This document shows positions 23,236 to 63,200 of a stretch of DNA of 64,000 nt, piece after piece (position 1 is the stretch's first letter; each line of letters begins with the position of its first letter). Made by a program: the position numbers and the translations under genes. The DNA is from Hydractinia symbiolongicarpus (Eukaryota; Cnidaria; Hydrozoa; Anthoathecata; Hydractiniidae). The notes under the pieces are model-generated. The model searched no databases. It was not told where the DNA came from and saw only the letters and a program-made list of their open reading frames with translations. The stretch is taken from positions 2,418,001 to 2,482,000 of the forward strand of contig NC_079882.1 of NCBI RefSeq assembly GCF_029227915.1, given 5' to 3'.

Positions 23236-24557
23236 GTAATAAAGTCAAACTTGTCACAAAAACGGATTTATATGACCCATTACTAAGCGTATTTCCTATG
23301 GAGAGATCAGGTCTAGGGGATGATGTAAGTTGGGACCTTAAATGACGTCTGCAGTAAAGAAGCCTCCGCGATAAAGTCTTCTGCTACGTGGTAAGAGCTT
23401 AACCGCAATTTCATTAGTTCCTGAGCAGAAAGGTGTCCGCTGTAAGAAGGTGTCACTGTTTATGAGTTACATGACATTTCATTGCAGTCCGATACAGTTT
23501 CTTGCGTTCTCGTGTGTCGAATTAATTTAATTAGGACGATCAGTGAATTGGTTTGGTGCTTCAAATAAGTTGAATACTTTTCCTATCTTATTAAAATACA
23601 TAACGTAAGAGGCAAAGGAGGGATGGAAGAGACTATTGTTTAGTACTCTGGATGTTGTGAACGGACAATATGCGCCAGATTATGTATTGTTGACTTAGTC
23701 TTCAGCATTGAGAGATCTCAAAAAAGTACGTCTCTAGCACCGAGTCTTAAGTAGGTGGGGGCACTATATACTGATTTAAATTAGAAAATTTGTCGTCTTA
23801 ACCACTGAAGAAAATAATGCAATGGTGTTTTTCTGTCTGTCCACAAGAAAAGTGTCGTGCAACGGGCACACGAAATAGCGTGTAATTTTAAGACGGACGC
23901 CCCGTGTATTTTTTACGGGTTAACAACTAGTAATTTATAATTATTGCCCTCCAATATACTAACAAACATTTTGCTAAGTGTTTTGGCAATATAACCTCTT
24001 CTTTGTCACTTTTAAACACCGCCTAACTCTATACAGTGCTCCTAAATTCCAAGCCTGAATGGAGTTAACGTAAAGTTTCAACTATCTTCAGTATACATAA
24101 ATATTTTGATATTTTTTATACATATATTGTAAGCAAAGAATATACTGTTTTCTGAAAGAAAAAATAATTTGTTTTGGTTGAAAATTAAAAAAAAAACACT
24201 TTCTAACCATTATAAGGATAGAAGATGTTAAATTACAGTAACCTTGTTTTTACTGAAAGTAAAATGAAAAAAGTGCAAACAGTAATTATAAACATAAAGT
24301 AATATGTAAAATACAAACATTATTGTTAATTAAAAACTAAGAAATAATAATGAAACAAAATATATAATCACACATAATCATAATAAAAAAAAAAGGCGAG
24401 AGAAAATGTTATGTGAAGTTAATTATAAATATTTCTCACTAATATTCTTTTTTTTTTCTTTTTTTTTTTGCCTAAACAAAATATTCAATCACGCTTTAAA
24501 AAAATAGAGAAGAAGAAATCATCAAAAACATCGAAAAATTCCAGATAAAGTTGAAGG
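23236..24557. other. Spacer upstream of the GPCR gene
   Basis: AT-rich. The last 400 bases are rich in A and T homopolymers, including a long T-run at 24448-24470 just upstream of the receptor start. No coding signal seen; presumably contains the GPCR 5' UTR and promoter. Confidence 0.35.
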
Positions 24558-25517
24558 ATGTCAGCCATAACTTGTTTTCCTGGCACATGGGCGCCATACG
24601 AGCTTTCTATCACCACATCAATTATTTCAGTTACACTAGCAGTAACAGCTTGTAGTGGAAACTTGTTAGTCATAATTTCTGTTATCAAAGATCCAAAACT
24701 ACAAACACCTTTCAATTATTTTCTCACGAATTTAGCTGTAAGTGATTTTCTTTTTGGTGCCATTGCGTTACCGATATCAACTTACGTACATTATAAAGAG
24801 TCCCGGAGAGAGCTGAGTATTCCGCTAATGCAAGCTGTTCATATGTCCTATTTCATTGCTGCTACAGCAAGCCTGCTAAGTTTGATTGCATTATCAATTG
24901 ATAGATTCATAGCTATTGTATACGCTGCAAGGTATAAGTGCATTGTATCTCCAAAGCGAAGTCACTTTGCATCTTTTATGATTTGGTTGGTGTCATTGAC
25001 CGTACCATTTGTGTACTTTAAGTTAGGAATGATCAATTATCTCATGTTTTTTGCCAATACTGTTTTGGTTATTGGTCTTTTCTTACTGATTGTTATATAC
25101 GCAAGAGTCTATAATTTTCTTCAACGTCAATCGAAAGAAATGCGGCAGCATTTAAATCTGTCAAGAGCTGTTGATTTGGATAAACTTGCTCTGAAGAAAG
25201 TTCTTCTAGAGAAGAAAATTGCCGGAGTTTTTATCACAATTCTATTGGTGTACATACTAACCTACCTACCTGCCATTGTGATGGTATATACACTGCATTA
25301 TTGCACACAATGTAATTGTATATTGCGTCACGTTTTCCGAGATGGTCAGTTCTGGTTGATTTCATTGCATTGCGCTGTCAATCCGTTTATATGCACTATT
25401 CGATTAAAACATTTTAAAAGAGCAATAGTTAGGCTGTTTGGTTGCCTGTCAAGAAATAAAGTCGCTACTAACGAATTTATAAACACACAAACAAGTATTG
25501 ATATGCAAGCCCTTTAA
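24558..25517 (+). CDS. Intronless class A (rhodopsin-like) GPCR, MECA-group-like
   Basis: 319-aa seven-helix receptor in one exon. TM1 has the GN motif (SGNLLVI). TM2 has LAVSD. TM3 ends in IDRF in place of DRY. TM4 has a single Trp (FMIWLVSL). TM6 has LTYLP. TM7 carries NPFIC in place of NPxxY. The loop between TM4 and TM5 is almost absent, and the usual Cys at the top of TM3 and in that loop are missing. TM5 lacks its conserved Pro. Extra Cys (CTQCNC) lie between TM6 and TM7. This combination is known from melanocortin/adenosine/lipid-type (MECA) receptors, so I infer that broad group; the ligand cannot be read. The gene sits between receptor paralogues 2 and 3 on the opposite strand. Start chosen as the first Met before TM1. 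Confidence 0.9.
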   Translation: MSAITCFPGTWAPYELSITTSIISVTLAVTACSGNLLVIISVIKDPKLQTPFNYFLTNLAVSDFLFGAIALPISTYVHYKESRRELSIPLMQAVHMSYFIAATASLLSLIALSIDRFIAIVYAARYKCIVSPKRSHFASFMIWLVSLTVPFVYFKLGMINYLMFFANTVLVIGLFLLIVIYARVYNFLQRQSKEMRQHLNLSRAVDLDKLALKKVLLEKKIAGVFITILLVYILTYLPAIVMVYTLHYCTQCNCILRHVFRDGQFWLISLHCAVNPFICTIRLKHFKRAIVRLFGCLSRNKVATNEFINTQTSIDMQAL

Positions 25518-34915: not shown

Positions 34916-35737
34916 TTAATAACAGTGGTAACAACCAAAACAGTATCGTTTTGAAGCATGAAAACGAGGCTCTTGGTTGGGAATAAATAATGTGTAATGG
35001 GGCAGATGCATAGGTGCAAACAGAGGAACGTTTAAATCCGATATTGCTCTGTTTGTTGAGCTATATCTAAATTCCTTTGACTGGCATAATTTAAATGCTG
35101 ATTTGCAAATTTCATTTTTATCCCCAATTAAGGTATTAATTGAGAAGTCTGTGTTTCTCTTTTCTCTCTCCTTGACTTTATAGTTAATCTCTTGTTTTTC
35201 ATGACACATGTTTGGAGATGTGTATAAATCTTGGTGTTTTCCGTGTGAAGTTAAATCCACACAATCATATCGTCGGGTAATATCATGTTTATAAGGGTTG
35301 TCAGAAATACTATGTGAATATAAATGCGATCGTTTAAACCTTTTTCTTCTTCTTAGAAAACTTCCATGGTCGAACATGTCTGAACTTTCAGGATCCAATG
35401 CCCAGTAATGTCCCTTTCCAGAATTTCCTGATTCTCTGGGAACTTTCACAAAGCAATCGTTTAAAGATAAATTATGTCGTATCGAGTTTTGCCATGATGG
35501 GAATCTATCTTTATAGTATGGAAATTTCTCCATGATGAATTCACATATACCACTTAAGGTGAGCTTCTTATGAGGAGAATGCAAGACTGCCATTGTAATA
35601 AGAGCTATGTAGCTATATGGTGGTTTTACACATTTAGTGTTTAAGTCATTTGCAATATTTTTGTCATCCTCCGTGACTTTTTGCACAGATTCTTTCTTTG
35701 CTTCAGTAATAAATACCTCTTTTCTTATTTCATCCAT
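34916..35737 (-). CDS. FoxD: Forkhead transcription factor, FoxD-like, intronless
   Basis: 273-aa protein in one exon. The forkhead DNA-binding domain spans residues 38-136: [47 protein letters not shown] and the basic end [10 protein letters not shown]. The [10 protein letters not shown] and [17 protein letters not shown] stretches match FoxD best from memory. Downstream at 198-205 is FSINTLIG, which fits the eh1-type Groucho co-repressor motif known in FoxD proteins, so a repressor role is inferred. The N-terminus is acidic and charged. Start is the only Met upstream of the domain in this frame. Related classes (FoxB, FoxE) are possible but fit less well. Confidence 0.92.
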
Positions 35738-37864
35738 TTCAGATGTAATTGCAAATTGGCTTACGTACGTTCCTTGTTTTAACTAAATAGAGATAAAATA
35801 TGTGATCAACAATACTTGTAAACTATCAAAATCCAAGATAGAGAGAACGACATTAATTTAAAATATGAGAGAGATGTCTTCTCTTACTTGCTCTCAACTT
35901 TTTTGTGATTCTGCTTACTGTACATAAGCTTATAAGGTATCGCAAACGACTAATCACAACTGAACCGCAGGAGGTCTATTTATTGTCAACCTCAAAGGTA
36001 GGTAATAAGCCGTTTGAAATAAACAATAATCTTTCCAGACAAGTTTTCTTTACAAGTCGAAAAACATTTTGTTTTTATAATTTAACAATCTTCAGAGGAA
36101 ATAAAGGTTTTTACAGTCTTACCTACTTGATTGCCTGAGTTAATCAATAAAAAGTAGTGAAATCAAGGGAAACGATTTTAAAAATCACAAAAACACCACC
36201 ATACAAGCCCATATATGATATAATATGTTAAAAGTATACGCTTACTTGGTGCAAATGGGGTCTGACTACTTTTCTCACTACCTGTATATTTTTTTGTTTA
36301 ATGATTTCCACAAATCGATTTAATTTTTTTCTTTCGCTTGCAAAAACTTGCTAATAAGCTATTAATCTATTCTTAAATGATTTTTAATGATCACTAATTG
36401 TTAGCAAGCATGATAAGCACACAAGAAAGCACAAATAATTCTATCGATGTGTAATGCCATCGAAAGAATGTATGTTTTATTAATCCGTGCTAATAAGCTT
36501 CAGAAAAGCTCTCTTTATCTCTTATTTTCACCAAACAATCAAGTTAGTTTGCGCTTTGCTATGATCTTAACTAAAATAATCATATCCTTACTAAGCTAAT
36601 TGGATCGGATTGTTTTAAAAAAAGATATCGCACCATGCGTTCTTTGCATATACGTTTGTTGTTATAACTTGCCAGTGGGTGCAACTTAAAGCTGATTAGA
36701 CTCCATACTACAAAAAAAATGCACAGCATGTGTTTTTTCTTGTTTGTCTAAGTGAATCCATTTATCTGCCAGCAGGTTTGATATTATCAATTAGACGAAA
36801 CATTTTAAGAGCATGATAAGATCGTGAATGCCAAAAGAATAATCTTGAAAAAGGATTGCAATGTGTTCGATTTTTCTAGAAATACCAAGAGGGAGAATAA
36901 AATTTAAAATTCTCTACCTCATATACTCATAACACAATAATGTTGCTATTATCGAAATATTATTTCCTACAAACATTTATATAAATTGATTTAAAGTAGT
37001 CTTCTTATGAACCTTCTAAACCTACATTTACCGGCAAACGCATGTGTATTTTAAAGCTACAGATCAGTCACATGTGCAGGAAGTGATATTAACCATTGAT
37101 GTGTCTCAAATGCTTAATGCCATACTTGCTAATTGTTGGGTTAAAAATTGACTATACCTATTTTTTTTATTGTATTTTGATATTTTTCTGCAAATATTGA
37201 CACCTATGCGAAAAACGCAACATTTGACTAATATAATTTAGCTAATTATTTCCAAAATATAGGTAACATTACTAACTGGGGCGTCGGATCATTTAAAGTA
37301 TGAATGCTTGCCCGAAATTTTTTTTAGGATTCAAAAAAAATTGACAGCAAAGTACATTTATAAAATTTTGTGCTTTAAATAAAAGTAGGTAATATACCGC
37401 CATCTAATTATTTCTTCTTTTGTGGCAACAGCTTAAAAATTAGAAAGGGGATAATATTTCTTCATTACTTTATAGATATATACAAATTGGTATAAACAAG
37501 CGTGAAGCTATTACTAACTGTGAAAGTACAAGAGAATCAAATTCCCCATGGTGTTGGGTACCATTTTGAGTAACGGTAGTTGCTAAGCAACGATAAACTT
37601 AACTTCTACTTTGCTTGGTATTTTTTATCGTTCTTAGAACGATTTTATACATCGGAACTTTCAAAAAATGATTCCACTTAGCTAATGTTCCACTTAACTG
37701 GGGTTGAACTTATCCAAAGAAATTGAGAGAGTTTGATAAAGCAAATCCAACAGACCGGGTAAAATGGTTCCACTTAGTAAAGGTTATTCGGGGTTTCACA
37801 TGTATCGAGTGACAACTGCATATAAAACCTTTTCTGAAAAACTATTTTACGTCACGTAATGCCT
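35738..37864. other. Spacer between FoxD-like gene and RAG1-like transposon
   Basis: AT-rich; probably contains FoxD-like upstream control DNA. A perfect palindrome GTTGCTAAGCAAC at 37579-37591 resembles an RFX X-box, function unknown. No coding exon seen. Confidence 0.35.
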
Positions 37865-37868
37865 TTCT
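37865..37868. repeat. Target-site duplication TTCT, left copy
   Basis: TTCT directly precedes the CAC end of the transposon and is repeated at 43821-43824 directly after the other end. Confidence 0.85.
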
Positions 37869-37915
37869 CACGGCTGTTTCAGCTAGCGAGATTTCGGAAA
37901 CTCAGACTGCGCATG
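37869..37915 (+). repeat. Left terminal inverted repeat of RAG1-like transposon
   Basis: 47 bp: outer block CACGGCTGTTTCAG (14 bp), 13-bp spacer, inner block GGAAACTCAGACTGCGCATG (20 bp). Confidence 0.92.
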
Positions 37916-38348
37916 TCAAAAAAAAATTTAAAATAAGGACTGGGGCGAGTTGCGCTTAAAAGTAAACAAATTTTAGGGTAGCTAGCACCAGGTTTAATAG
38001 GCATTTTAATCACATAAACCAACTTAAGGACTGGAAACTAAGTGGTTTAAATAAAATATAGTCCTATACCAATAAGATTAATTCAAATACAAAGCTATTC
38101 GCTTGTTGCCTAGCTAAAACAAAACAAAAACTTTCAACCTCCATTTTGAAGACTGTGGACACCATGCCAACTTAAAGCAAAATATTTTCAGATACGAAGT
38201 TATCCAACAGATAATTTTTATAAAAATCATTCCAAGATAGTTACGAGATACGAATAAAAAAAGAACTGTAGGTGTATCAGTACATTACGAATTGATATTG
38301 TATCAAACATTAGGTACTTTTTTTTCAAAATTTTTGTTAAAGTTCAAG

Positions 38349-41300
38349 ATGGCTACTGGGGATTTACACCTAGCTCGGTTGAACAAGCTGTGTCGAATAT
38401 GTGGAAACACTCTGCCTGGACGATCACATATTGTCCAAGAGCACATAAAGAACTTGGACAGTATTTTCAGAGCTGATTTTTATTCTGATCGGGCAGGCAT
38501 TCACCCAAAAAAATTCTGTCACTCGTGCTTTGCTACAATAAGTAATGTCCTAAAACGTGACTCAGCTACCGCTATTGTGCCTGTTAAATGGTATACACAT
38601 AAAGACACCGAGTGCAAAACATGCATATTAAGTGCACAAAAAAAGAGAGGTGGCAAACCTATGAAAAGAAGGGGCGGTGGTAACCCAACACACAAAGCTG
38701 TGGATTCCGCAGAAAAAACTTGGACACCCCTAGAACTTAATAAAATTTACAGAAAAACCTCTGAACTTTTTGACTATAGTGGAAACGTTCTCTCAGACAT
38801 AAATATCAGTGAAGGCAACTGGGAACATCTGATTTGTGCTTTGTGTAGCAATATTTTAAAAAGGCCATTAATGATAAACCAATGTAACCACGTGTTTTGT
38901 GCCTTGTGTTTAACAAATTGGTTGGAAAATTCAAATAGATGTCCCACCTGCAGCATCCCAACAACACCCGGGGATGTCTCGCCTGGTTTGTGCATTTCCA
39001 GGATTTTAAACACACGAGTTGTCAAGGGAACATGTGGTTGTTCATTTAAACTGCTGTCTGCACAATCGCACACATGCTCTCCAGCATTGTCATTTACAAC
39101 ACTAGAGATGATGCAGTTGAGCCCTTCCAAGCCTGTACCGAAAAAGGTAGAAGAATGCATTGCTCATGTGGTTGGAATAAAAATGCAGCAGTCAAACTTG
39201 CCGAATAAAACTGTCCAATTGCCCAGTGGAAGTTCACAAGTAAGATTACTTATGTATGGAGTGGACTCAGTAAAAGTGATTTGACATTGACTTTTTTTAA
39301 CAAGCAACTGATTTTCAAACGGCTGATCTTAGCTGATCTTTGATCTTAGCAATTTTAAGGCTGAAATCAAAACTGAAAATAAGTTGCTTTTGTATATGTC
39401 TATATATGTGCATACCTAGGTTATCATTTTTTTACAATTCCAGTGAAATGTTTCTTATACACATTTTTTATACAAAAAACAAGCCATAATAAGAACAAGA
39501 CAAATTTTAAAATGTTCAGAGTAAATAATTAAAAATAATAATAAATATAAGTAAGTGGCTAGAGGGGTCACAGAATATAGGAAGTTTTGGGGGTCAATAA
39601 AAACCATTCTATATATTAGGAGATTTACTAAAATTTTGATGTGCCCACCCTAAATGCTAAGGCGTCTACATCGTTAAGTGATCTTATATAAAAAATGTGT
39701 ATAACTACTTTATACAAAAATACAAAACTATGCTATGTTATATTAAAAATAATGTACACATAATTGTCTGTAACAATATGATAATTTTAATAGTAATATT
39801 ACATTTTACATAAAACAAATTAATAACATATGTTCCATATTTTAGCCATTGACAATAACACCCATTAGAATTCCTCGCAAGTCTTCTGATGAAACATGTG
39901 AAAGGAATGTGCGGAAAAGAGCAAATACAGCCAAGGAGTTAATCCATCTGATGTCTGGTGAAGAAACCCAATCTGTCACAAAACAGACCACAGCACTGCT
40001 AAAGTCTATGGAAGAAAGTGACAGAAATACTATCATTAAAAATTTGGGTACAGAAGTCATTATTCCAGCCAATCACATCACAGCAATGAAATCAAATTTA
40101 AACATGCCATGGAATCAACTACGTGAAATATCACGTTGGTTGAAAACATTCAACATAAAAATTGAATCAGAAAAAAAAGCAAGAAGTGTCGCTGCTGAAT
40201 GGGTAGGCCAAGGACTGAGAGTTGAGCTGGCTCCTCTCACCAAATTATCAGTTGGAAACAGGGTATCCGTTATACCTAGGCCCTGGGGGTATCTGTATAA
40301 TGTAGTTGGCCACATTCTGTATCAACTCAAAAAGCTAGAATGTCACAATTTACTTGTAAAACATAGTTTCATTCCTGACAATGAGATCCATGTTAAAATT
40401 GGTGGAGACCATGGAGGAAATAGTTTTAAAATGGCATATCAAATAGGCAATGTTCTAAACCCAAACAAGAAGGAAAACACAATAATGTTTAGCATTTTTG
40501 AAGGTAACAAACATTAATGCAATATATTACAAATATGAAAAAAAAAAAATTAAAACTGGAATTTCCAAAATTCTATGCATGTGATGTCTAATTGTGATCT
40601 AAAGTAGAAATGATCTAAGTGATCTAAAGTAGAAATCAAAACATTTTTTATATTTTTTTTTTAAATTAGGGAAAGACACAAGAACAAACTTAAGAGTCTG
40701 CCTTGAACGGTTTCGACCACAAATAAAAATGCTGCAACAAGTCAAATATAAAGAGTCGATATTCCGTGTATTTATGTATGGCGACTACGAATTTCTGTGT
40801 GCAATGTATGGTATAACTGGTGCAAATGGTAAATATTAATTACTTAAGATCTGGGGCAAGTTGCTAGTTGATAATCAAAATTAATTAATTTTTGACCACA
40901 AATAAAAATGCTGCAACAAGTCAAATATAAAGAGTCGATATTCCGTGTATTTATGTATGGCGACTACGAATTTCTGTGTGCAATGTATGGTATAACTGGT
41001 GCAAATGGTAAATATTAATTACTTAAGATCTGGGGCAAGTTGCTAGTTGATAATCAAAATTAATTAATTTTTACAGAACTTTTTTTGCAACTTCATAAAG
41101 TTCCTGTAGTTTAACAATGGGTTTTTACTACGCAGATATGGGAAATGCATAGTTAAAAATGGTTTATTTTTAAAAGTTTCTAATAAAATATGTATACTTT
41201 AACATTTGTGTTTAGGGCGTCACAGCTGTTTGTTTTGCAACATTACCTCAAAACTAATGAACATCCCAGTGTTTACTCGCAAGAAATTTAAGAAAAGGTC

Positions 41301-42992
41301 ACTGGCGACACTTGAAGAAAATTTAGCAGATTTCCGTGAAAGTGGTGGGAGCCCTAAAAATGCGAAAGAATTTTATAATGTCATTGACAACATATTTTTT
41401 GACATACCTATTGATCAAGTATACATCATATTTTTATGCTTTTCCACTGCAAGTTGATTTAATAATCCCAAAATAAAATCTATATAAACACCTAATTTTA
41501 GGTCTGTATTCCTGGTCTTCATATTTCCTTGGGTGTATATCAAAAGATGTTTAAAATGTTTGAGTCTTCTTGCCAAGACTATGATGTAAAAATAGCTCTG
41601 CTGTTGGCAACAGAAGACAATGAACTGGATTCAGATTATGGTGACTACATCGAAGTCCTTAAAGAAACAAATGACTTGCAGCAAAAGCTGGAAGATGAAA
41701 AAGCCAAATTAGCAAACCAGCAAGATCAGTTAAACTGGCTTGTAATATCTGGTGGCTTACAACGAAATATACTGACGTACGAGAAAAGTATAATAAAAAC
41801 TGAGAAGAAAATCACAGAATTAGAATTAGAAATCTCAACCTTGGGAAACAACAAAAGAATTTTAGTGGGTATGATCATTTTTATTACCTAAGTAATTTTT
41901 TGTGATATTCGCAAATGTTTTTTTGTCTGGAAATTCCAAGAAATTTAATTCCCGAAAAAAAACTTTCCAAAATTATAATTTTCATTCTGATCTTATGATG
42001 CAAGCCTTATATTCTCTCCAATCTAAAGCTATGTTTAATAGTTTGTTCATCTTATTTTAGGTGTTGGTCCTTGTGCTTCTTCAATAGATAAAACGCTGCA
42101 AAAAATGGGTGTTGAACGTCAGGCCTACCATGGCCAAAGTTTTATCGGCAACCATGTACATAAATTGCTAAAGGTTTGTTAATACTAACAATAATGTAGC
42201 AATTTAAAAATAACATATTTAAAGAAAATTAAAAAAACAATCTTGCTCTTATAGAAAGAAAACATCCAAAATTTAACATCCAGCATTAAAGAGATTGTTG
42301 CAGCACAAAAGCATGATGACCAGCTTATTCACAGTGTGAATTTAGAAATGGATAAGTACGACATGTTATTTACTTACTTTGCAGAAGTTCATAACATTTA
42401 CAATTCGGCAAAATATCTGTCATGTGAGGAAATACTGGCTTTAGGTGAGAAACTTGTTCCTTTTTTTAATAATAAATAAGTTTTTTTTAAAATTTCATGT
42501 GCCAAAAACAAAACAAAAAGAAAGAATAATATACATATAGTACATAATTCTAGAAATTTCAATTAATAAATTCATGATGCATCTGCGAACTAACTGGCCA
42601 AAAGTTAATATTTCACCAAAACTGCATATGCTTGAAGATCATGTCACTGAGTTCATAGCAAAATGGAATGTTGGATTTGGGTTTTATGGCGAACAAGGTA
42701 AACAGCCACTTAAATTTGTAACCTGGTAACACCAAAATTTGTGTTTTTTACCAAAATGTGTTATTTTTCAGAAAATGTGTAGCTAGCTAGCTTAAATGTC
42801 AAATTATAACATTTTTAAGGTGGAGAAAGCTTGCATCATGAAATCAACAGGATGTCGAGCAGGTACAGCTGCATCAAAAACCCAGTCGAGCGGTTACGAA
42901 ATACATTAAAGCAACATTTTGTTAATGTAAATCCTGAATCGAGCCAATTAAAACCAAAAATTAAAAAAAGAAAAATTGCACGTGAAGAATAA
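38349..42992 (+). CDS. RAG1-like transposase: RAG1-type zinc/RING N-terminus plus DDE core
   Basis: Exons: 38349-39239, 39846-40503, 40670-40828, 41216-41418, 41502-41868, 42061-42173, 42255-42444, 42554-42697, 42820-42992. All junctions are GT-AG and in phase, giving 965 aa without interruption. N-terminus as in RAG1: CRICGN (15-20), GIHPKKFCHSC (50-60), WYTHKDTECKTC (81-92), then a C3HC4 RING (C163, C166, C179, H181, C184, C187, C198, C201). Core: candidate catalytic D485 (KIGGDHGG), D555 (YGDYEF), zinc ligands C574/C577 and H885/H890, candidate catalytic E911 (GEQGGES). D555 to C574 is 19 residues, and H885 to H890 is 5, the same as D708-C727 and H937-H942 in mouse RAG1. H890 to E911 is 21 versus 20. 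CIPGLHISLG (639-648) resembles RAG1 IDALHCDIG. A coiled coil (about 688-755) lies between the second Asp and the Glu. The RAG1 nonamer-binding GGRPR motif is not seen. Confidence 0.92.
40596..40637. repeat. Short direct repeat in intron 2 of the transposase gene
   Basis: TGATCTAAAGTAGAAAT occurs twice about 23 bp apart, just upstream of the exon 3 acceptor tract. Confidence 0.85.
40715..41072. repeat. Perfect tandem duplication, 2 x 179 bp, inside the transposase gene
   Basis: 40715-40893 and 40894-41072 are identical by eye. Each copy contains the 3' part of exon 3 (including the YGDYEF catalytic motif) and the start of intron 3. The second copy has no acceptor before it. Using its donor would add 179 nt (frame shift) and intron stops, so it should be spliced out as intron. 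Recent duplication or assembly artefact. Confidence 0.95.
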
Positions 42993-43783
42993 CTTTTAGA
43001 CTTACAGCTTAGATAGCTAGTTATATCTTTAACTGCATATTAGCATTACTTTGCAAGCTCCTTTAGTCTTTGCATTATTTCAAAGGTGGATCAGCTGGTC
43101 TAGAAAGAAAAAGAATTGAACAGTTAATTAGCTTACTACATGCATAGTTCATTTTTATTTGACTTTTTGTCGAGCTTACGTTAGTAGTGTATGAGACGCA
43201 GAAACCTTATTTAGAGTTACAGAATTGTTTATATAGAATGTTGTTTAGTGTTGTTATTCTGTGAAATATTAGCTTAGTAAACTACAACAGTTTTAATGCC
43301 TACAATAAATCATACAGTAGATTATGTCAAAGAGGGAGTTAAAATTTTCAGGTTTTACACTAACTTTTATTGCCAGAATTCAGCGCTCTAGCATTCTTTC
43401 AGAAGTACTGATACAGTTTTTTCGTTTTTCTTACCTTGTAGATGAGCCTTTCAGCTTTCCAAAAATATATAATACACCAGCCACATAACTTCGCAACGTC
43501 CACAAAACCAAAAATTAGTTGGAACAAGTTGCCATGTTAATTTTAACAAAAAAAAGTATGCCTTCAAAACTGCCACAGTATTACTCCAACAGCATGCTTG
43601 TCGCAAAGGTAAAAGAAAGATTTAGCTTCCAGCGTGTTGAAATGCTTTAAAAAACTAAATTAAATCCACTGAAATAGATTCTATCATGCAAAAGCGATTT
43701 CAAAAAGTTAGTTACTTATTTATCATGATTGTTTTTATTTGCGCCCGCCATCTTGCGCCTCAACGTGGCCGTAATTATTGACG

Positions 43784-43820
43784 CATGCGCAGTCTTAGTT
43801 TCCGCTCTGAAACAGCCGTG
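43784..43820 (-). repeat. Right terminal inverted repeat of RAG1-like transposon
   Basis: 37 bp. On the minus strand: outer block CACGGCTGTTTCAG (identical to left), 3-bp spacer, inner block GGAAACTAAGACTGCGCATG (19 of 20 identical to left). The spacer is 10 bp shorter than on the left. Confidence 0.92.
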
Positions 43821-43824
43821 TTCT
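43821..43824. repeat. Target-site duplication TTCT, right copy
   Basis: Matches 37865-37868 across the element. Confidence 0.85.
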
Positions 43825-52100: not shown

Positions 52101-55100
52101 CTTCGCTCGATAAAATCTTCGTTCACGCGAGCGCTCATCTGACGAGTGTAGCAACGTACATAGGTATGGTGTCTTAAGTCACCCTCTCTTTCAAGCAGAA
52201 TAGTCACATTTCCTACGTTTTCTTTCACAGAGTATTCTGATTGGGCGAAATAAACACGTGGTTCTAAAGATAATAAAATACATGATATAGAGAATAAATC
52301 TGAAGTTTGAATAAGCAATTTCCCTCCAGCATAGAGACAACGATTTCTACAACGCATATATGATAATCCTTACGATCTGATTTTGTGTCGTCAATAATCA
52401 CGGTTGCTTCTGAAGGTTCACCTAACCTGCCATTTCTTGGTGTTCGAATTAAAACGTCAAAATGTTCTTTCCCTTCTAATCGCACGCGTCCTGTGTCGTC
52501 AAGTATCTTTACTTTGACAATTTTTTCAGTTTCGTCAGGATTAAAACGGAGCGATGTTACAAGTGGATGATAATCACTGTATGCTATAGGGGAAACAAGT
52601 GTTAAAAAAGTTAGAAATTGAGCTGCAGTAAATCAACCATGAGTTTTATATAAATCTCTCCCAGCTAACACAAACTAATACCTTTCGCTGATACTGGAGA
52701 ATTTTGTCGAGTGGCAAAAAGAACATATGACGTCATGGAAAGATCTGTTCCAACTCTTTCTACACTGATTTTCACAAAACCAGATTTTTCTTCCACATTG
52801 TAAAAGTCTGATGATAATGAGAATCTTGGTTCTAAATGTGAAAGAAAAAAGATCAAGGATCTTTAGTCAAAAAAGTGAATCAGCTATGGTCCAACATGAG
52901 TGTCAACATTATCATTACCATCTTTAGCGTCTTCCTTTATTATGACGTCACATTTTGCTGCTGAGTCAGCAACTCTTCCACCATACAAAGAAAGAATTTC
53001 GACTTTAAAGTTTTCTTCACCCTCATATAAGGAGTCATCGATTATTCTCACTGGACAAAATTTAATGATTTCGTTCTAAACAATGTGCATGTAATATATT
53101 ATTGCAGCTGGATGTTTTGAGAATCAATTTGATGTTACGTGTAATGAGGTAGTCTTAACGCACTTCTAAGTTACAAGGACTAAAGAGGTTGGGAAAGAGG
53201 GTGTTTTATGTATTTGACAGTAACATGAAGAAAATAATTACCTCTTGAAACGTGATAATGCTTGACCGATCATCTGCATATCTCGAGATATAATCTCGAT
53301 ATGACGTCACTTTTGATCTGTCAGTACCATTTGCCGTATCTAGGATCATACATAAAGCGACGTGTTTATAAACTATGGTAAATGGATCAGCAGGTTAGTT
53401 AGTTAACAGATTATATTCAAGATATTGTGACATACCTGATCGGGTTACACATTTAATTCGTATAATGCTTGAGACATCTCCTTTTCTTCGTATCGGAATG
53501 TTGACCGTTCCAATTGATTCGGATATTCTAACAACTCTTTCACTGATCATCACGGTTGGTTCTAAACAAAACATGAACAGGTGTTAAATTCATGTTCGAA
53601 AAAGCTGGAACACGTGATCTGGCATGATGGTAAATTCATAATGGCCTTAATTTTTATATCATGTTCAAACTCTCACGGATAAACATCACGCGCTGATGTT
53701 TTAAGCCATGTCTTAAAAATTACCGCCATTAAAGAAGCGGCGTAAAAATGAGTTCATAATGTTGATAACGTTAAAAGTAAACGAGGCAAGGAAAGGGGTT
53801 GACTCGTTTCTTCTAAAACATAGTTGCATAACAATAATGACATTTTTGTGAGGTCTTGCATGAAGAATCTGTGTTTTAAATAAGCGAATGAAACAACAGT
53901 TATATAAATCATACCGTCTTCAGGATCATAAATCTCTATCGTAGCGTTGTTTCGTGATGAAACGAGTCCATTGTAAGATTTCTTCAATAAAACTTTCACA
54001 GATTTTACTTTCTCATACATATCATCGTCAAGTATTGAAAAATGGAAAGAAGCCTTCGTTTGACCAGGACCAAACTGAATCTGTCTTTTACTCCTTGTAT
54101 CAGGTTGATTGTTTTTGCTTCTTTGAACAAATTCTACAGTGACGAACGAAGTTGTCCCTAAATACCCGTTCCGGTGAAAATCTAATTTTACGTGCTTATC
54201 AGTTTCATTTGCTTTGTAGTGGCTGTTAGCTATTGATACCCACGACCATTTAAAATGGAATGTTTGTCCGTATAATACATTCTTTTTCTCGTCATAAATA
54301 TCAAAATGAAAAAAGTCGTTCACAGCTGTGCTACCCACATCCAAAATATAAGCAATCTGTTTTTTATTGATATCCTCTTGAGTAAACTTTCTCACAGGTT
54401 TCTTCTTATTTGTCATGCGTACTATTTTTCCATGTTTTGGCTGTTGTTTTATAGAAAATTTGATGTTACTGGCTGCACTCGCATAGTCTTCTGCTTTGAG
54501 GTACGAACTTGTAAATTTAAAGAGAGTATACGATCTTCGCACTCGCAAACTTGATGCGCCAGTGTTGGTCACTAAAACTGGAGCATGAGTGTCTACCTCT
54601 TTAATTTCTATGTCAATTTTTACGGGGTGTATCGTGCTTGCAGTTCTATCAGGACTCACAAAGAAATCAGTATGTCTTCCATCGGTTGCCGTCACAGAAA
54701 ACGAGTCAGATTTACTGAGAGATTTATCATGCTGGTACGATATTTTGTTCATATCAAGATCATATTGTGAAAATACAATCACTGGTTGAGAATTGAGCAG
54801 AATTTTACCATGCTTCGGCATGTCATGAATTTTAAATCTAACATGCACAGCTTCAGTATCATTATCAACTGCTTTTAACTCAAATGGTGTTATAACAGTC
54901 TTTTGTCCTCTCAAAGCTTTTATTATTTGTCGGTATAATGTCGGTTTTTTATTATTTACGTCACCAATATTTATGCGGAAAGTACGATACACTTTATTTC
55001 TGCCGTCCGTCACTTCGAACTCAAAGTTATCTAAATTTGTTTCATCCAAACTATTGTGAACATAGGATATTTTATTTGAGGCTAAATCAAGTTGAGAGAA

Positions 55101-58100
55101 TTTCGTAATTGGAAAACCAACATTGTCTAAATGCTCGACATAGCCCTTTAAAGGTGTTTTTGTGATAATAAATAGTAAATTTTCATCTGGAGTGTTCAAA
55201 TCTGAAGCGCTTAGCATATCAGTAGTTAGGATAACTCGTTTATTCTCTTTTAAAGTTACTCCTTGGTTAACTATATCTGGCATTATATTATCCAATGGTG
55301 TTATCATGATATTAAACATCTGATTGATAAGTCTATTAAATCCATCCGTCACATCCAGCCGAATAATTTCACGGTCGCCGACATCTTCGCTTGTATGAGT
55401 GTATCTAGAAAAGAAATCAGAAGCTATTATGCATTCTTGTCTCACATTGCCCATACTCTTGTAACCCCGTATTAATTTTTATCTTTTTCCTATCATGTGT
55501 GGTAAGAATAACTAGGGACCAATTCAGACTTGATGAATAAAAGCAGAAAAAACGAGAAAATCTCTAACCTAATTTTCCTGGTATTAATATCATGTTGAGA
55601 AAAATTTCCTCCTTTGTTAATATCAACAGTCATTGATGGTGAAATTACTCTTTGCAGTTTTCCATAAACCGGTTTCATCATGACGTAATACATCAAGGAG
55701 TCGTCGTTGCTATCTAAATCAACGGCTTTTAAATTGTACGCAGTGATCACTTTAGTTTCACCTCTATCCAAACGCAAGCCTGTATTGACCGTCAATCGCG
55801 GTGTTTCGTCATCCATTGATATGACAGTTATATTGACAACTTTGGTGACGTTATGAATACCGTCGTCAACACGTAATTCAAACGAATCACTCGTCGTCTC
55901 GGTACCTTTATGTTGATACATAACTGTAGCGCCTAAATCACCCATCAACGCCGTTTTTGTAAAAACGTCGGCAAGCTTTAACTCCGTTGTCTTTTGTAGC
56001 AACAGTTCTCCATTGATTGGTTGCTTAGTGACAGTGATAGTTAAGTTGTCTTCCGGTTGGTCTTGATCATAGGGATTTATTTTTGATAGATCAAGTAGGA
56101 TTAAATCGTCTTCAACGCATATTATGTTCGGTTGGACGAAAATCATCGGTACTTCGTCGTTAGTCGGTGAAATTACGACATTTATCGTTATTGTACTTGC
56201 AGTATTGCTTCCATCACTACATCTTATATCCAATTCGTCCATAACAGGTTCAACTTTCTTGTGTTTGCTTTGAACATAAGAAATATGGCCATGCTTAAGG
56301 TCATATGCTGAAAATGCTTTAACAGGGATTCCTAATTTTGTTACTTCAGATCCTTTCCATGTCGCAGAAGTTTCGATAAAACCATGCTTTGAAAATTTTG
56401 TTATGTTGCACAGCACATGTTTAAGATTGGTATCCGCATCAGTAATGTTCAGTTGTTGTTTAGCTATTACTGTTTTTCCACCTTCATCAACTTCAACAAG
56501 AAACGTTCCGGAGACAGTTGGTGGCTCACTATCAACAGGCTCAACTACAACTTCAATTATGATCCCAGAAACAAGATTCCCGCCAATAAATAAGTCTTCA
56601 GACATATCAGTTAAAGTCAAATTTAGTAGATCCATTTTATGCTTAGTGCCGATCTCGCCACTTGTGTGTTTGTATGAAACAAAACCGCTCAAGATATCTG
56701 TTAGTTTAAAAGTGTCAGTGGGTTTACCTAAATAGACAGTCAGATATTTAAATATTGTTACTCTCAGTGTAAACCACTTATTCTTATTGCTAAAACGTTG
56801 TGTTCAAATTTCCAGCAAAAAATAGCTAAAAAAATAATAAGAATGATAAAAAAAACCAACAAGATAAGAACAAGTTGTAATGAGCTAAAAATGGTTTTTA
56901 ATCACAAGTTTTGGAAAAAATATATACAGAAAAAATGCCGTCAATCAAACTAGAGCTGACGAATGTCTTACTTGCTAAGTTCAAACATGTGCAAAAAATA
57001 CCTTTAACTTGTAATTGTCCATGCTGTAGAGGTTTGGTGACTAGAAAGGTTAGTTTCTCATCAGCTGAATCTTTATCTGTAACCTCCATGACGTCACTGG
57101 CAATTTTAACAACGCCATTTTCAGGCACTGTCAATCTTTTCTTTAGAAGTTTTAAAACAGGACGCTCGTCATCCGATGGTGTTATGACTAAAGTAGGGTA
57201 TAAATAGTACTAATTTGATGATAGTTGAGAAAAGATAAATGATAAAAACAAAAGTAATTATTAGGCTCCATGTTACAAAATTTAAGTTTTAAACCTCAAT
57301 TTAACTTGAACGTTTATAACAACGTTTAGTCAGGGTCCAAACCCAAAACCAGAAGACCTCCGTTCTTGTAACTATGAATCAGTGTGACTACCTATGAGTT
57401 TGAGATTTTTGTCTCCCAAAATCTCTCCAACGAATAATTTTTGTGAGAAAAAAAACGCATTATTTAAAAAACTCTTTGTTACTTGTGATTGTCAGAATTT
57501 GGGTGTTGGCGATCGCGAAAGACGTTAAGATTAGATTGAAAGCGAATATGTAAAAACTGATGAAACTTGTTTTCGCTTTACACTGGTATGTCTTATTTCA
57601 ACTTGCAAGTTATGCTTATAGGAATTTAAATTTTAAAGTTAGTAATTGACTCATTAATAGCGTGCTTACCTACGGGAAGTTCTATATGCACCATATGAAC
57701 AGTATCAGTAAGAATTAACTTGATTTCGTCTGCCGTAGTTTCTGATGAATCATGAACATACTCCACTCTTTGTTGTTTTATATCGTCCATGCTAAATGAA
57801 GCGCCAATAGTCAGTTTTTGTTTGTTTAACAACACCTGTCCATGTTTTGGTAATTTCTTTAATCCAAATGAAAGTTCTTCGTTTAAATTATCAGGATCAT
57901 ATGCTCGGAGTTGTTGTGCTGATATTAAGCCTCTTTTTCCCTCCTTTAATGTTATTGTATTAATGACAGCAACTGGTGCCATGTTATTCACAGGTTGAAT
58001 GTCAATCATGAAAGTCTGTCCCGCAATAGAGTTACCAGCGTGATCGGAAACCGTAAAGTTAAACAGCACTTGACGTATCTTTCCACCGATTTCTGTCACT

Positions 58101-60271
58101 GGTGGTACATAAATCACTTTAAAGTGGTTTACTTGTTTCTGTGTAAATGAAGAGATTTCTTTTTGTAGTTGATGACTAAACGCAATCTTTCCGGCGTTAG
58201 TTTCCCCTGTTGTATCGCCGACAAAGTATGGTTTATTTGTGACGACGTATCGAAGTGATTCGTCGAGGGAATCGCCATCTGTGTATTGCAGAACCTGCTT
58301 TGAAAACTCTTTAGGTTTGCCCTCAATTACTTTCATTTTTAAGGGACAATCTACATGCAACGTTGGCTGTAAGTCATCTTTTGGAATAACGTCAATGATA
58401 AATGTTTTGAGTCCAGACTGGTTTGGTGGCTCAGCTCCGTCTGACAAGCGAAAAGTAAAGACGTCATTGAATATTTCCTCTCCGAAATGACGGTAAAATA
58501 TTCTTCCCAGAATAACGTCGACTTGAGAGAACTCTGTAATACGATCCTGGTTGTTGCCGTCGCGTACCACAACGCCTCTATTTGTATTGACCCGAAAGAG
58601 AACTCCAGCGACAGGTGGATCAACAACTTTAAACAAAACTTTTGTATCATCAGAGTCAACATCACGCGCACTTAAATCAAATTGATTAATTTTGACCAAA
58701 GATCCTTCATCTACCGTAACTCCTGTGTTATAAGCTAAAACTGGAGGTTCGTCATCCACTGGAACGATAGTGATAGCGAATAATAAATCCACTGAGTTCG
58801 TTCCGTCTGATATTCGTATTAGTAAGCTATCACTGTAAGTATCTGAATCATCATGGACGTAACGGACCAATTTGTTGACAATGTCATTTATTGTAAAATG
58901 GCTGACTTCCTTTCCATTCTTCTCAAGTTTTCCATGGAAGAGACCACCCACCACGACAATTTTAACATCCTCTTCGTTATCAGGATCACGAATTTTTAGC
59001 ACATCTTTTGTTATCGGGCGAGATTGTCCCTCAAACATGGCCAATCCGGAGTTTTTTATTACTTGGGGTGCGTAAGTGTTCATCGGCTTAATGACGATAA
59101 TGACATAAAAAGGCTGGGACGAAGCACCATAGCTATCACGTGCTTCCAACCATACTTGTTGTAATCGTTGATTGGTGCTTAACTTGTCAGGTGGTTTAAA
59201 CGCAATTTTTAGTTGGTCGATTTCTTTTTGATAAAACGTGGTTAAAGGCCGTGTTGGGTCATCTGTATGCACTAAATAACCTTCACCTGGAATATTTTGT
59301 GTCGTAACGTTGAAGATAATCGAACCTGATTCGGTTTCACGGTCCTCTGCTTTTAAAACTGTGGAGGTTAATGCTGTCAGTACAATTTGGTCCACCTGTA
59401 AACTGTAACTTGCTGAATTGTAATTTACTATCGGTGGTGTGTTTTCAGGTGCTCGTCGGATCCTAACCGGCACTTGAATAAATTCGCGCTTTTGGACTGC
59501 TTCAGTTTTCTTATCGGACAATTCAACCATTAGAGGAACATAGTCACGGTTAGAAGATCTTCCACGTCTTTGATGTGCATACCGTAACATTCCACTTAAA
59601 AAATCATCACAAGGGATATATTTGTACTCCTTTCGATGCAATAAATTTAAGCCATACTCTCCATCGCTGGTGTTAACAATTGATCCAAAAAATGGTGGAC
59701 CATTTTTTCTTGGCAGGAAACATATTCTACATACTTGATTTTCTTTTGTATATCTTACATTCAAAATTTTGGGATCTATGGGATCAGAAAGACCTCCTAT
59801 TTCGTCAACAAATAAGTTTTGAACTTTCTGCAAAATATCAAGAGGTTTGGTGAAAATGACTTTAACTTGAATTGTAAATGGAGCTATTATAGTTTCATCT
59901 TTGGTATCCAGCCTAACTTGCAGTCTTATTGTGTCTGTTGTCCGTGTCAAGCTACCAAAATGTTGATACGATAAAGTAAACATGTCGAATTTGCACGGAA
60001 ACGAAGATGGTGTGATTTTTCCTAATTGGGAACTCATAGGATCGTTTTTAAGAACATAAACTTGACAATGTCCTTCAATGTCATACGATATAGTCAAATT
60101 CTTTGGATTTAAATAAACCTCCCTGCCATAAGGTACATTAATTTGAAAATTTCGAACAATTTTAACCTGCGATGATTGTCTTTCCACAACATATACGTTC
60201 GCTTCACATGAGTAATGTATAAACATCAGACACATAACACACGCGCGAAAAATTAAACTACTTCTCTCCAT
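46124..60271 (-). CDS. FREM2: FREM2-like extracellular matrix protein (CSPG repeats, Calx-beta, transmembrane)
   Basis: 22 exons (minus order): 60271-57670, 57187-57002, 56727-55569, 55404-53915, 53561-53436, 53339-53242, 53075-52919, 52831-52682, 52583-52374, 52263-52043, 51789-51663, 51446-51265, 50949-50665, 50362-50172, 49797-49629, 49505-49174, 48921-48512, 48244-48060, 47951-47750, 47333-47146, 46913-46767, 46579-46124. All GT-AG and in phase: 3,090 aa, close to vertebrate FREM2 (about 3,170). Signal peptide at the start ([17 protein letters not shown]), then 12-14 CSPG repeats to about residue 1690 (recurrent EG...I....L...D.D and Y.H patterns), five Calx-beta units from about 1700 to 2330 (exons 4-13), a conserved C-terminal region, RRRR at 2986-2989, membrane helix about 3045-3068 and a 22-residue tail ending GTAI. 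FRAS1's VWC/furin N-terminal modules are absent. Family role: basement-membrane adhesion of epithelia. Confidence 0.93.
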
Positions 60272-63200
60272 TGTTCTGAGATGTCAATTTCACTGCATCT
60301 ACAACAAAATAAATTTTGTACAAAATGGCGGCAACTCAACACAGCCAGGAGTAATCGTATTCAGATTTCCCCTGCGTTGGCTGCTAATAAAACGCGTGTT
60401 AAAATAAATCTATTCTTGTTTGTCATATTGCTTATAAGTAAAAATTTTTAAATAGACGCCTTTATCTAATCAATTTCGTAAGAAGTTATTTCAATTTCCT
60501 AGCGGGTAATTAGACTAATTAATTTGGTTTCCTATTTTAATCAAGCGTTATGGCTTGACGATACCACAAACACCTAGCAAGCACAACAAAATAAAAAACG
60601 TGCACATGTTTGGATCAAAAGGCGAAGTCATTGGATTAATCCTGAGCAATTGTCCTTAGAATTACATTAGCAACCATTTGTTATTAATTACGGATTAAGA
60701 AAAGTACACAGAAGAGGAAATAACAACCTACTATCTAAATGAATGAAGAAATAACTTAAAATTATCTTGGTGCCTGTATGTTTAAAATTGTGATGCTCTT
60801 CTGACCTAAGGTTGTAAATGCCGTTACAATAATACACGTGTATTAATAGCTTCTAAAAGTCATACTGCCCATACCACTCATTCAGACGAAAACTATGGAC
60901 TATACTTCTGAAGTCGAATTCTTTCAGTAAATAAAAGAATAAGTCAAAGCAATGAGAAATTATTGTTCTATAAAAACGATAAATAAATAATGTGGATAAG
61001 AGAATGATTTTACTACATTTCAAAAGCCCTACATTTCAAAAACCCTCACAAACACAGAGTAGACACAGACACGAAATTACAACATGCGTTTCATACCAAG
61101 CTTTTTAAACTTTGGTTGGAGTAAAATAAAATTCTATCAACATTGCAGGTGCTCAATGTATACACTTTTTTATAAGAACACCAAAAAGACTAACCAGGCT
61201 GTTCATTATTCTTATTTCTCTATTAATTTAGAAAATTGTTTTTAACCTGAAATCCCAACCTGATATTTTTATACAATGTCGTGTACTCCAATGTTAAGCG
61301 TCCAAGCAGTTCGATTATTTTTCTTTGTCTTGTAGTATTACTTTTATTTTGAATTTTTTTGAGTAGAAAATGACATTTAAGGAACCTGAATTTAATTCAA
61401 TTCCAAAATATTTTTTCATTCGATGTAGAATGTTCTTATAAGGAAAGGTCACCCGGCTTGTTACACTCACAGGTTGGGAAGGATAAAATATATATTGTGA
61501 TCATGTACAGTTTTTGTCCCACTGAGCTTAATTGACAGCCTTTCTATGTCACATGAGATGCATTGTTTCCTTCCCCTTAGTCTGGCTGGCATGATTCCTA
61601 GTTTATTTGTAAGATAAGTGAGAGTCCATTGAAATGAACTGGTCTACTTATCATACAAACATAATTTTTTAAATAACATCTCGACCGAATAGACCAGCAA
61701 TAAAAACCGGATCAGCTCACCTCTACGTAAGCAACGTCTTGGAAACGCTGACTGACTTGTGCCAAAAAAATTCTCGGTATGCCCAATTGTGCAAATTCTC
61801 GGTATGCGCAAAAACGAAATGAGTTTCTAGTCATGTTTTAACGATATTTCAAAAATCAGTGCATATGAATTGGAAAACATATAAATATATAAATATAACC
61901 AAATGAGGTTCACTCCCTTTTAATTTTAAGTCACTGGCTAGAGTTAATGCAAGCAAACTTATCGCCGGCGTGGAATTTGCACGAACTCATTTGGAATGTA
62001 AAAATACTTTTGAAATTTATTAGCGTAAACCACACAATTTTATCTTATAATAAACGTTGTCTCGTTCTTTCGATACTATCAGGTAAATCTTTAACTTACC
62101 AAACACCACAAAAATGCAATTAAAACTACCACAAGTTTGACCATGCACGCGTGCGTGCCAAATTCTTGCAAATTCCGCTTCGCTTTTATTACTGCTAACT
62201 CCTTTATCGCGTTGTCTTCTTTTATACTTGCACCATTCCCAGCGAAGTTTTTTCTTCGTGACAGCTTTGTAAGAAAGCTTAAAAAAATAATTTGTGCAAA
62301 TTACTTTTTTGAGATTGTTGTTGTTGTTGTTGTTGTTGTTGTTTCAAAGCTTTATTACTCCTTAGCATTTTCACCTTTTTAAACTCATCATCTTTTAAGA
62401 AGACAATTAAAATCCGATTTTTCTTTTGTGTATTTATTATATTATTTGTCTCCTATAAGTCTATTTTTTCTTTCATCCTTGCCTCCCGAATGATGTAACA
62501 AAAATATCTTGTACATAGTACTCAACAAAAATGTCAACATTTAGACTCCATGAATAAGAAACAGTCATCAATCTGAAATTAGAGTGTCTGTGTAAAAAGA
62601 TTAAAAAAAATTTTGTAACACAGAATAGAATTTTTTTCCTTTCCTAAATCATCAAGCTTTATGAATAAATGGAGAAGAAAAAAAAAATCAAAAATAATAT
62701 TTTTATAAGCTATGTACATAGTTTATGTACAGGTCTGTCTGATGTTGATATCAATTACGTCAGTCCTTTAATTAGCTAGTCGCCAGCTTGAATAATAATG
62801 AGTTTTTCGAGCCATCCTTATTGCATGATGTATTATTGTTGTGCAGAGCCTATATACGTGCTTGTCAGAAAGGGTGGAGACTCCTATATAAATGAAATCG
62901 TTTTCATGTAGAATGAAGAGTAAAATATTAACACATCTTAACCGGACAATCTCTGGTATGCTTTAAAAAATGTTTTCATCTTCTGCAACAGTAAACCAAC
63001 ACGGGTAAAAAGTTGCAAATTTTTAATCCATTAAGTGGATAAAACAGAATGCAAATATCCCAATCCATTTTATTTAATTTTTCCCTAAATGAAAAGAATT
63101 CTGATTTTTTTGTTGATTTTTTAGGTACCTTAAATTGCTTTGCCGGTTTTAAATATTATATATCGGTTTTTGCCATATCTGGACACATAACAATCAACGT

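Follow-up and report, generated by a model that had tools for sequence, protein, structure and literature searches.

Where did the N-terminus of the recombinase RAG1 come from, and how old is the 12/23-type asymmetry of the ends on which it acts? Both are old questions, and both become testable at a transposon lying in a stretch of 64,000 nucleotides (hereafter the window; contig NC_079882.1, positions 2,418,001 to 2,482,000) of the cnidarian Hydractinia symbiolongicarpus. A preliminary description of the window, made from its letters, had read this transposon as an intact element joining a Transib-type core to an N-RAG-TP-type N-terminus. Our analysis indicates that it is almost certainly an autonomous cut-and-paste Chapaev, recently amplified in this species beside an amplified family B and a family E with at least two near-identical copies, and that it encodes a single DDE transposase of 965 amino acids (aa) with the domain order of RAG1, namely a Chapa zinc region, a RING, a region resembling the nonamer-binding domain (NBD) and the dimerization and DNA-binding domain (DDBD), and an RNase H-type core bearing the C2 and H2 zinc ligands.

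The transposon ends at 37869 and 43820, where both termini carry the exact 14-mer CACGGCTGTTTCAG. A second block of the terminal inverted repeat (TIR), 21 nt long, is 95% identical between the two ends, and the end-to-end alignment score of 58.5 compares with a maximum of 32.0 among 2000 random pairs of window stretches. TTCT stands directly outside both ends, and the termini read 5'-CAC ... GTG-3', as they do in families B and E. The matched repeats and the target site duplication (TSD) reported earlier are thereby confirmed. There are 480 bp ahead of the start codon and 828 bp from the stop to the 3' end, the longest other frame being one of 129 codons antisense to exon 1; judged from the list of open reading frames, without a kelch profile search, a RAG2L gene would not fit into the element beside the transposase gene.

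The preliminary description had also proposed a search of the host genome for further copies. In the assembly that we searched (480.9 Mb in 76 sequences, labelled C1, C3 and so on, with the window on C8; the excerpted assembly paper for HSymV2.0 gives 84 sequences and 482.9 Mb, PMC10411563), the whole element recurs with 99-100% identity at no fewer than 14 further places, in keeping with its description as intact. From these and related matches, termed family A, 26 stretches covering 40 matching places were taken. Of the 26 stretches, 25 were scoreable at both ends, and all of these have a perfect 4-bp duplication, L031 and L032 having the same flanks and being counted as one insertion. Among 23 copies the mean difference is 0.07% and the maximum 0.25%, and the exons with all 965 codons are kept in 19 of them (961 codons in one more; three truncated). 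The burst of family A is recent, and the earlier suggestion of a cnidarian host with a recently mobile element agrees with these near-identical copies and their 4-bp duplications. An older relative (L039) is 6.4% divergent, and a diverged copy with a rearranged 5' end (L040, C6:22.13 Mb), in which the terminal block occurs again 23 bp further on, was not scoreable. L031 and L032 lie about 15 kb apart (C9:30.957-30.978 Mb), most simply by a segmental duplication holding the element.

The nine exons, bounded by GT..AG sites, give 965 codons and a stop when joined in frame, and at all eight joins the reading runs on at both sides in alignment A1, as judged by eye. In Pfam searches, the joined protein scored above the cut-offs for RAG1_imp_bd (PF12560; 26.2 bits vs 23.3), C3HC4 RING (PF13923; 44 bits vs 27), and the DUF1280 core (4.3e-15; 56.4 bits vs 25). 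The spacings D-19-C-x2-C and H-x4-H are present in the core, and a profile alignment places RAG1 residues D600, D708, C727, C730, H937, H942, and E962 on D485, D555, C574, C577, H885, H890, and E911, respectively, within a match that is collinear over 152-1000 of RAG1. A relative 36% identical to the transposase has the RAG1 fold. The nine-exon gene, the zinc N-terminus and RING, the RAG1-like spacings with a candidate catalytic Glu, and the relationship of the core to RAG1, all put forward in the preliminary description, are confirmed.

DUF1280 corresponds to Chapaev transposases, which form one clade with RAG1 according to the available text of PMC3985635, and the Chapaev hallmarks that the excerpt of PMC4079192 lists are found here. 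The TSD, generally 3-4 bp in Chapaevs, is exactly 4 bp in families A, B, and E; the DDE core bears the C(2)C and H(4)H motifs; and a RAG1-like N-terminal domain is followed by a RING. Residues 300-965, used as a protein query, retrieved 35 homologues, of which the 13 named belong to Hydra, sea cucumber, crinoid, amphioxus, sea urchin, and acorn worm; precomputed labels among the 35 were DUF1280 in 33, RAG1_imp_bd in nine, and RING in five. A protein search with the N-terminus had 1293 candidates, none of which reached E<=0.001. The RAG1 fold of a relative and the RAG1-type N-terminus would also suit an element of the ProtoRAG/RAGL or Transib kind, but such an identity is highly improbable given duplications of 4 bp instead of 5 bp, a DUF1280 core, the N-terminal region itself, which Transib lacks, and the missing space for RAG2L. 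The claim of a Transib-type core joined to an N-RAG-TP N-terminus thus failed, the duplications and the core being those of a Chapaev. Several points weigh against the Chapaev reading as formulated above or narrow it: the fold comes from a relative and not from the transposase itself; the joined protein has no match to PF12940 (RAG1) at E<=1, which leaves its assignment to the RAG1 family proper unsupported; the copy number is a lower bound, as 26 of 103 candidates were scored; and the evidence is the sequence of one genome assembly from one individual.

The joined architecture is not new. Chapaevs carrying a RAG1-type Chapa domain, with a RING as well in two subgroups, were on record in 2015, and the excerpted text of that paper already infers an ancient ancestor in which Chapa, RING, and core had become fused (PMC4411706). 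The window element is therefore one more member of known evidence; to that extent it has a bearing on how the RAG1 N-terminus arose, as the preliminary description had argued, although that reading was overstated. Probably Chapaev and RAG1/Transib go back to one ancestor that already had the complete architecture, and the N-terminus was lost in Transib, a history with which the collinear match to RAG1 and the same inference in the available text of PMC4411706 agree. It is rather unlikely, on the other hand, that the RAG1 ancestor gained Chapa and RING by recombination from a Chapaev-like or N-RAG-TP element, even though several comparisons point that way. With phmmer, the match to RAG1 comes from the N-terminus only (residues 38-229, E 4e-11), and the score of the core stretch lies below 0 bits. 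The Chapa and RING identities to RAG1 (24.6% and 25.9%) are nearly as high as those among Chapaevs (26.8% and 28.2%), whereas the NBD region drops from 31.1 among Chapaevs to 15.2, and the distance ratios rise from 0.98 (N-terminus) through 1.84 (NBD-DDBD) to 2.83 (core). However, these distances are saturated, at about 4 changes per site, with bootstraps of 40, 5, and 0 for the three regions, respectively. A regression on core identity gave Chapa an excess of +10.5 points, not above the +10.9 of the NBD-DDBD control, which is expected to travel with the core. Only RING stands out (+22.9); this excess is unexplained under common inheritance, yet RINGs of many proteins match the window RING. 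The comparisons are unrooted and were made without Transib or RAG1L sequence sets, which limits the case for common inheritance too.

The two ends of the element are unequal. The 14-mer and the second block are 12 bp apart at the 5' end but 2 bp apart at the 3' end, and scoring by script gave the same spacers in 24 of 24 stretches of family A (L041 was scored at the 3' end only). Measured from terminus to second block, the offsets are 26/16 in family A, 26/16 in B, and 27/16 in E, so that three families of one genome have bipartite ends whose unlike spacers differ by about one helical turn. A genome-wide end pattern built from A and B, allowing spacers of 0-30, had 101 matches vs none for the reversed control. 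Among 100 of these, 13 bases precede GGAA in 54, three in 44, and 12 in two, and all 41 convergent pairs closer than 9 kb combine 13 with 3 (24 of family A, 17 of B). Recombination signal sequences (12/23), ProtoRAG (27/31), and AanRAGL (4/13) are asymmetric too, as given in excerpts of PMC8289069 and PMC9435367. In open-licence literature screened by title and abstract start, with Repbase Reports outside the scope, no description of one-turn asymmetric bipartite ends was found for Chapaev.

A 12/23-like pairing rule, by which the transposase would act on a long end (26-27 bp) only together with a short one (16 bp), would account for these regularities, and we regard it as a serious possibility that falls somewhat short of being probable. 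The pattern was derived from A and B, the same two families to which all 41 pairs belong; of the 100 matches, 18 stand without a partner; and the separate observations amount to three families sharing common descent, all Chapaev ends compared being from Hydractinia. Asymmetry of ends, moreover, need not imply obligatory unlike pairing, and for the D elements (starting with CACGGCTGTTTCAGCGGGCAATATTT) partner ends were not found within L048. Unlikely, in our view, is the wider proposal that Chapaev transposases enforce long/short pairing one turn apart and that, consequently, the ancestor shared by Chapaev and RAG/Transib already possessed 12/23-type asymmetry, NBD, and the Chapa-RING N-terminus, at a stage preceding the arrival of RAG2. 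By analogy with RAG1 and Transib, the core of a transposase dimer would read CAC at the termini and its NBD-like domain the second block (CGGAAACT..GCGCATG), one long and one short end might be brought together in synapsis, cleavage could proceed via hairpins with joining at a 4-bp stagger, and the RING may act as a ubiquitin ligase.

An exact 179-bp tandem duplication, absent from the preliminary description, runs from the last part of exon 3 into intron 3 (window 40715-41072), and the codon of the second catalytic Asp sits in its unit. Among 23 copies of the element, 15 hold two units, five hold one, two hold three, and one holds none; an assembly artefact was rejected as its source because the unit number differs among copies.

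Family B is a second recent Chapaev family of 4.55 kb, whose copies L042, L043, and L044 (C1:8.35 Mb, C11:10.19 Mb, and C8:17.86 Mb) are 99.9-100% alike. Its protein is 48% identical to that of family A over 864 aa and has a Chapa-like first exon, with no RING seen; among the matches listed, it has 17 end pairs (12 of exactly 4549 bp), and its TSD is 4 bp in 13 of 13 cases. Family E has two copies 99.3-99.5% alike (L069-L072, at C6:3.19-3.20 Mb and C8:28.53-28.54 Mb) with the 4-bp TSDs CAGG and GGCG (2 of 2), and could be compared with A in pieces only (34% over 77 aa and 48% over 157 aa). Across the genome, the RAG1 N-terminal profile matched at least 60 places and DUF1280 at least 77. At C10:10848539, C3:33682376, C3:18954628, and others, the N-terminal match has no listed DUF1280 match nearby; such places may represent damaged Chapaev copies or, like N-RAG-TP, elements consisting of the N-terminus only. 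The PF12940 profile had no match over the genome, but neither did the controls, so that this says nothing for or against a RAG1 core. For the element in L046, the 5' end was not found. A single 1030-codon frame at L045:3143-6232 matches DUF1280, with no Chapa recognised by eye, and contains what we take to be a PHD finger; RAG2 also contains a PHD finger. The frame at L045 2-1786 is presumably USP-like. A search of viral contigs for relatives gave 38 pattern stretches, none confirmed, and TIR pattern matches in one phage-like and six bacterial contigs were judged to be chance, about 10 being expected across the genome collection by a rough estimate. In the window, the frames at 24555-25517 and 34916-35782 presumably belong to host genes, GPCR-like and forkhead-like, and 53754-60283 is a FRAS1/FREM-like host gene by its named relatives, which make up 3 of 22 matches, are all from vertebrates and do not include the best matches.

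Table 1. Coordinates of the transposon and its parts in the window.
Feature	Position	Strand	Remarks
5' target site duplication	37865..37868	none	TTCT
5' TIR terminal block	37869..37882	+	CACGGCTGTTTCAG; exact match to other end
5' spacer	37883..37894	+	12 bp (long end)
5' TIR second block	37895..37915	+	CGGAAACTCAGACTGCGCATG
Exon 1	38349..39239	+	start codon; Chapa/RAG1_imp_bd zinc region (aa about 14-103); RING and zinc motif (aa about 158-246)
Exon 2	39846..40503	+	NBD/DDBD-like region and start of catalytic core; D485 codon 40407-40409
Exon 3	40670..40828	+	D555 codon 40783-40785
179-bp unit, first copy	40715..40893	+	exon 3 end and intron 3 start
179-bp unit, exact second copy	40894..41072	+	inside intron 3
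Exon 4	41216..41418	+	C574, C577 (C-x2-C)
Exon 5	41502..41868	+	aligned with beginning of long-helix stretch in model of relative P0009
Exon 6	42061..42173	+	
Exon 7	42255..42444	+	
Exon 8	42554..42697	+	H885, H890 (H-x4-H)
Exon 9	42820..42992	+	stop; catalytic Glu candidate E911 at 42825-42827
3' TIR second block	43784..43804	-	
3' spacer	43805..43806	-	2 bp (short end)
3' TIR terminal block	43807..43820	-	
3' target site duplication	43821..43824	none	TTCT

Taken together, a cnidarian harbours an element that moved recently and encodes a transposase alignable with RAG1 all the way from its zinc N-terminus to the catalytic Glu; the ends of this element show, outside the RAG/Transib lineage, spacing asymmetry of the recombination signal type. 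The near-identical copies in a laboratory cnidarian offer a place to test long/short pairing. Among known systems, the P element belongs to a different superfamily with an 8-bp TSD. Mouse RAG1 differs from the window protein in its core (identity about 18.6%), and the latter belongs to a transposon without RAG2. ProtoRAG/RAGL elements have a 5-bp TSD and a convergent RAG2L, in contrast to the 4-bp TSD and no RAG2L here. According to the excerpt of PMC8355894, Transib (HzTransib) has no N-terminal region and a 5-bp TSD, and N-RAG-TP is wholly RAG1 N-terminal-like, whereas a catalytic core follows here, the comparison with N-RAG-TP being by description only. With the Chapaevs of the CMC group, the element shares the 4-bp TSD, the CAC/GTG termini, the DDE core with C2C and H4H, the DUF1280 match, the Chapa domain, and the RING known from two subgroups; from them it differs in that A, B, and E are new Hydractinia families and in the one-turn asymmetry of their bipartite ends, not described for Chapaev in the literature screened.
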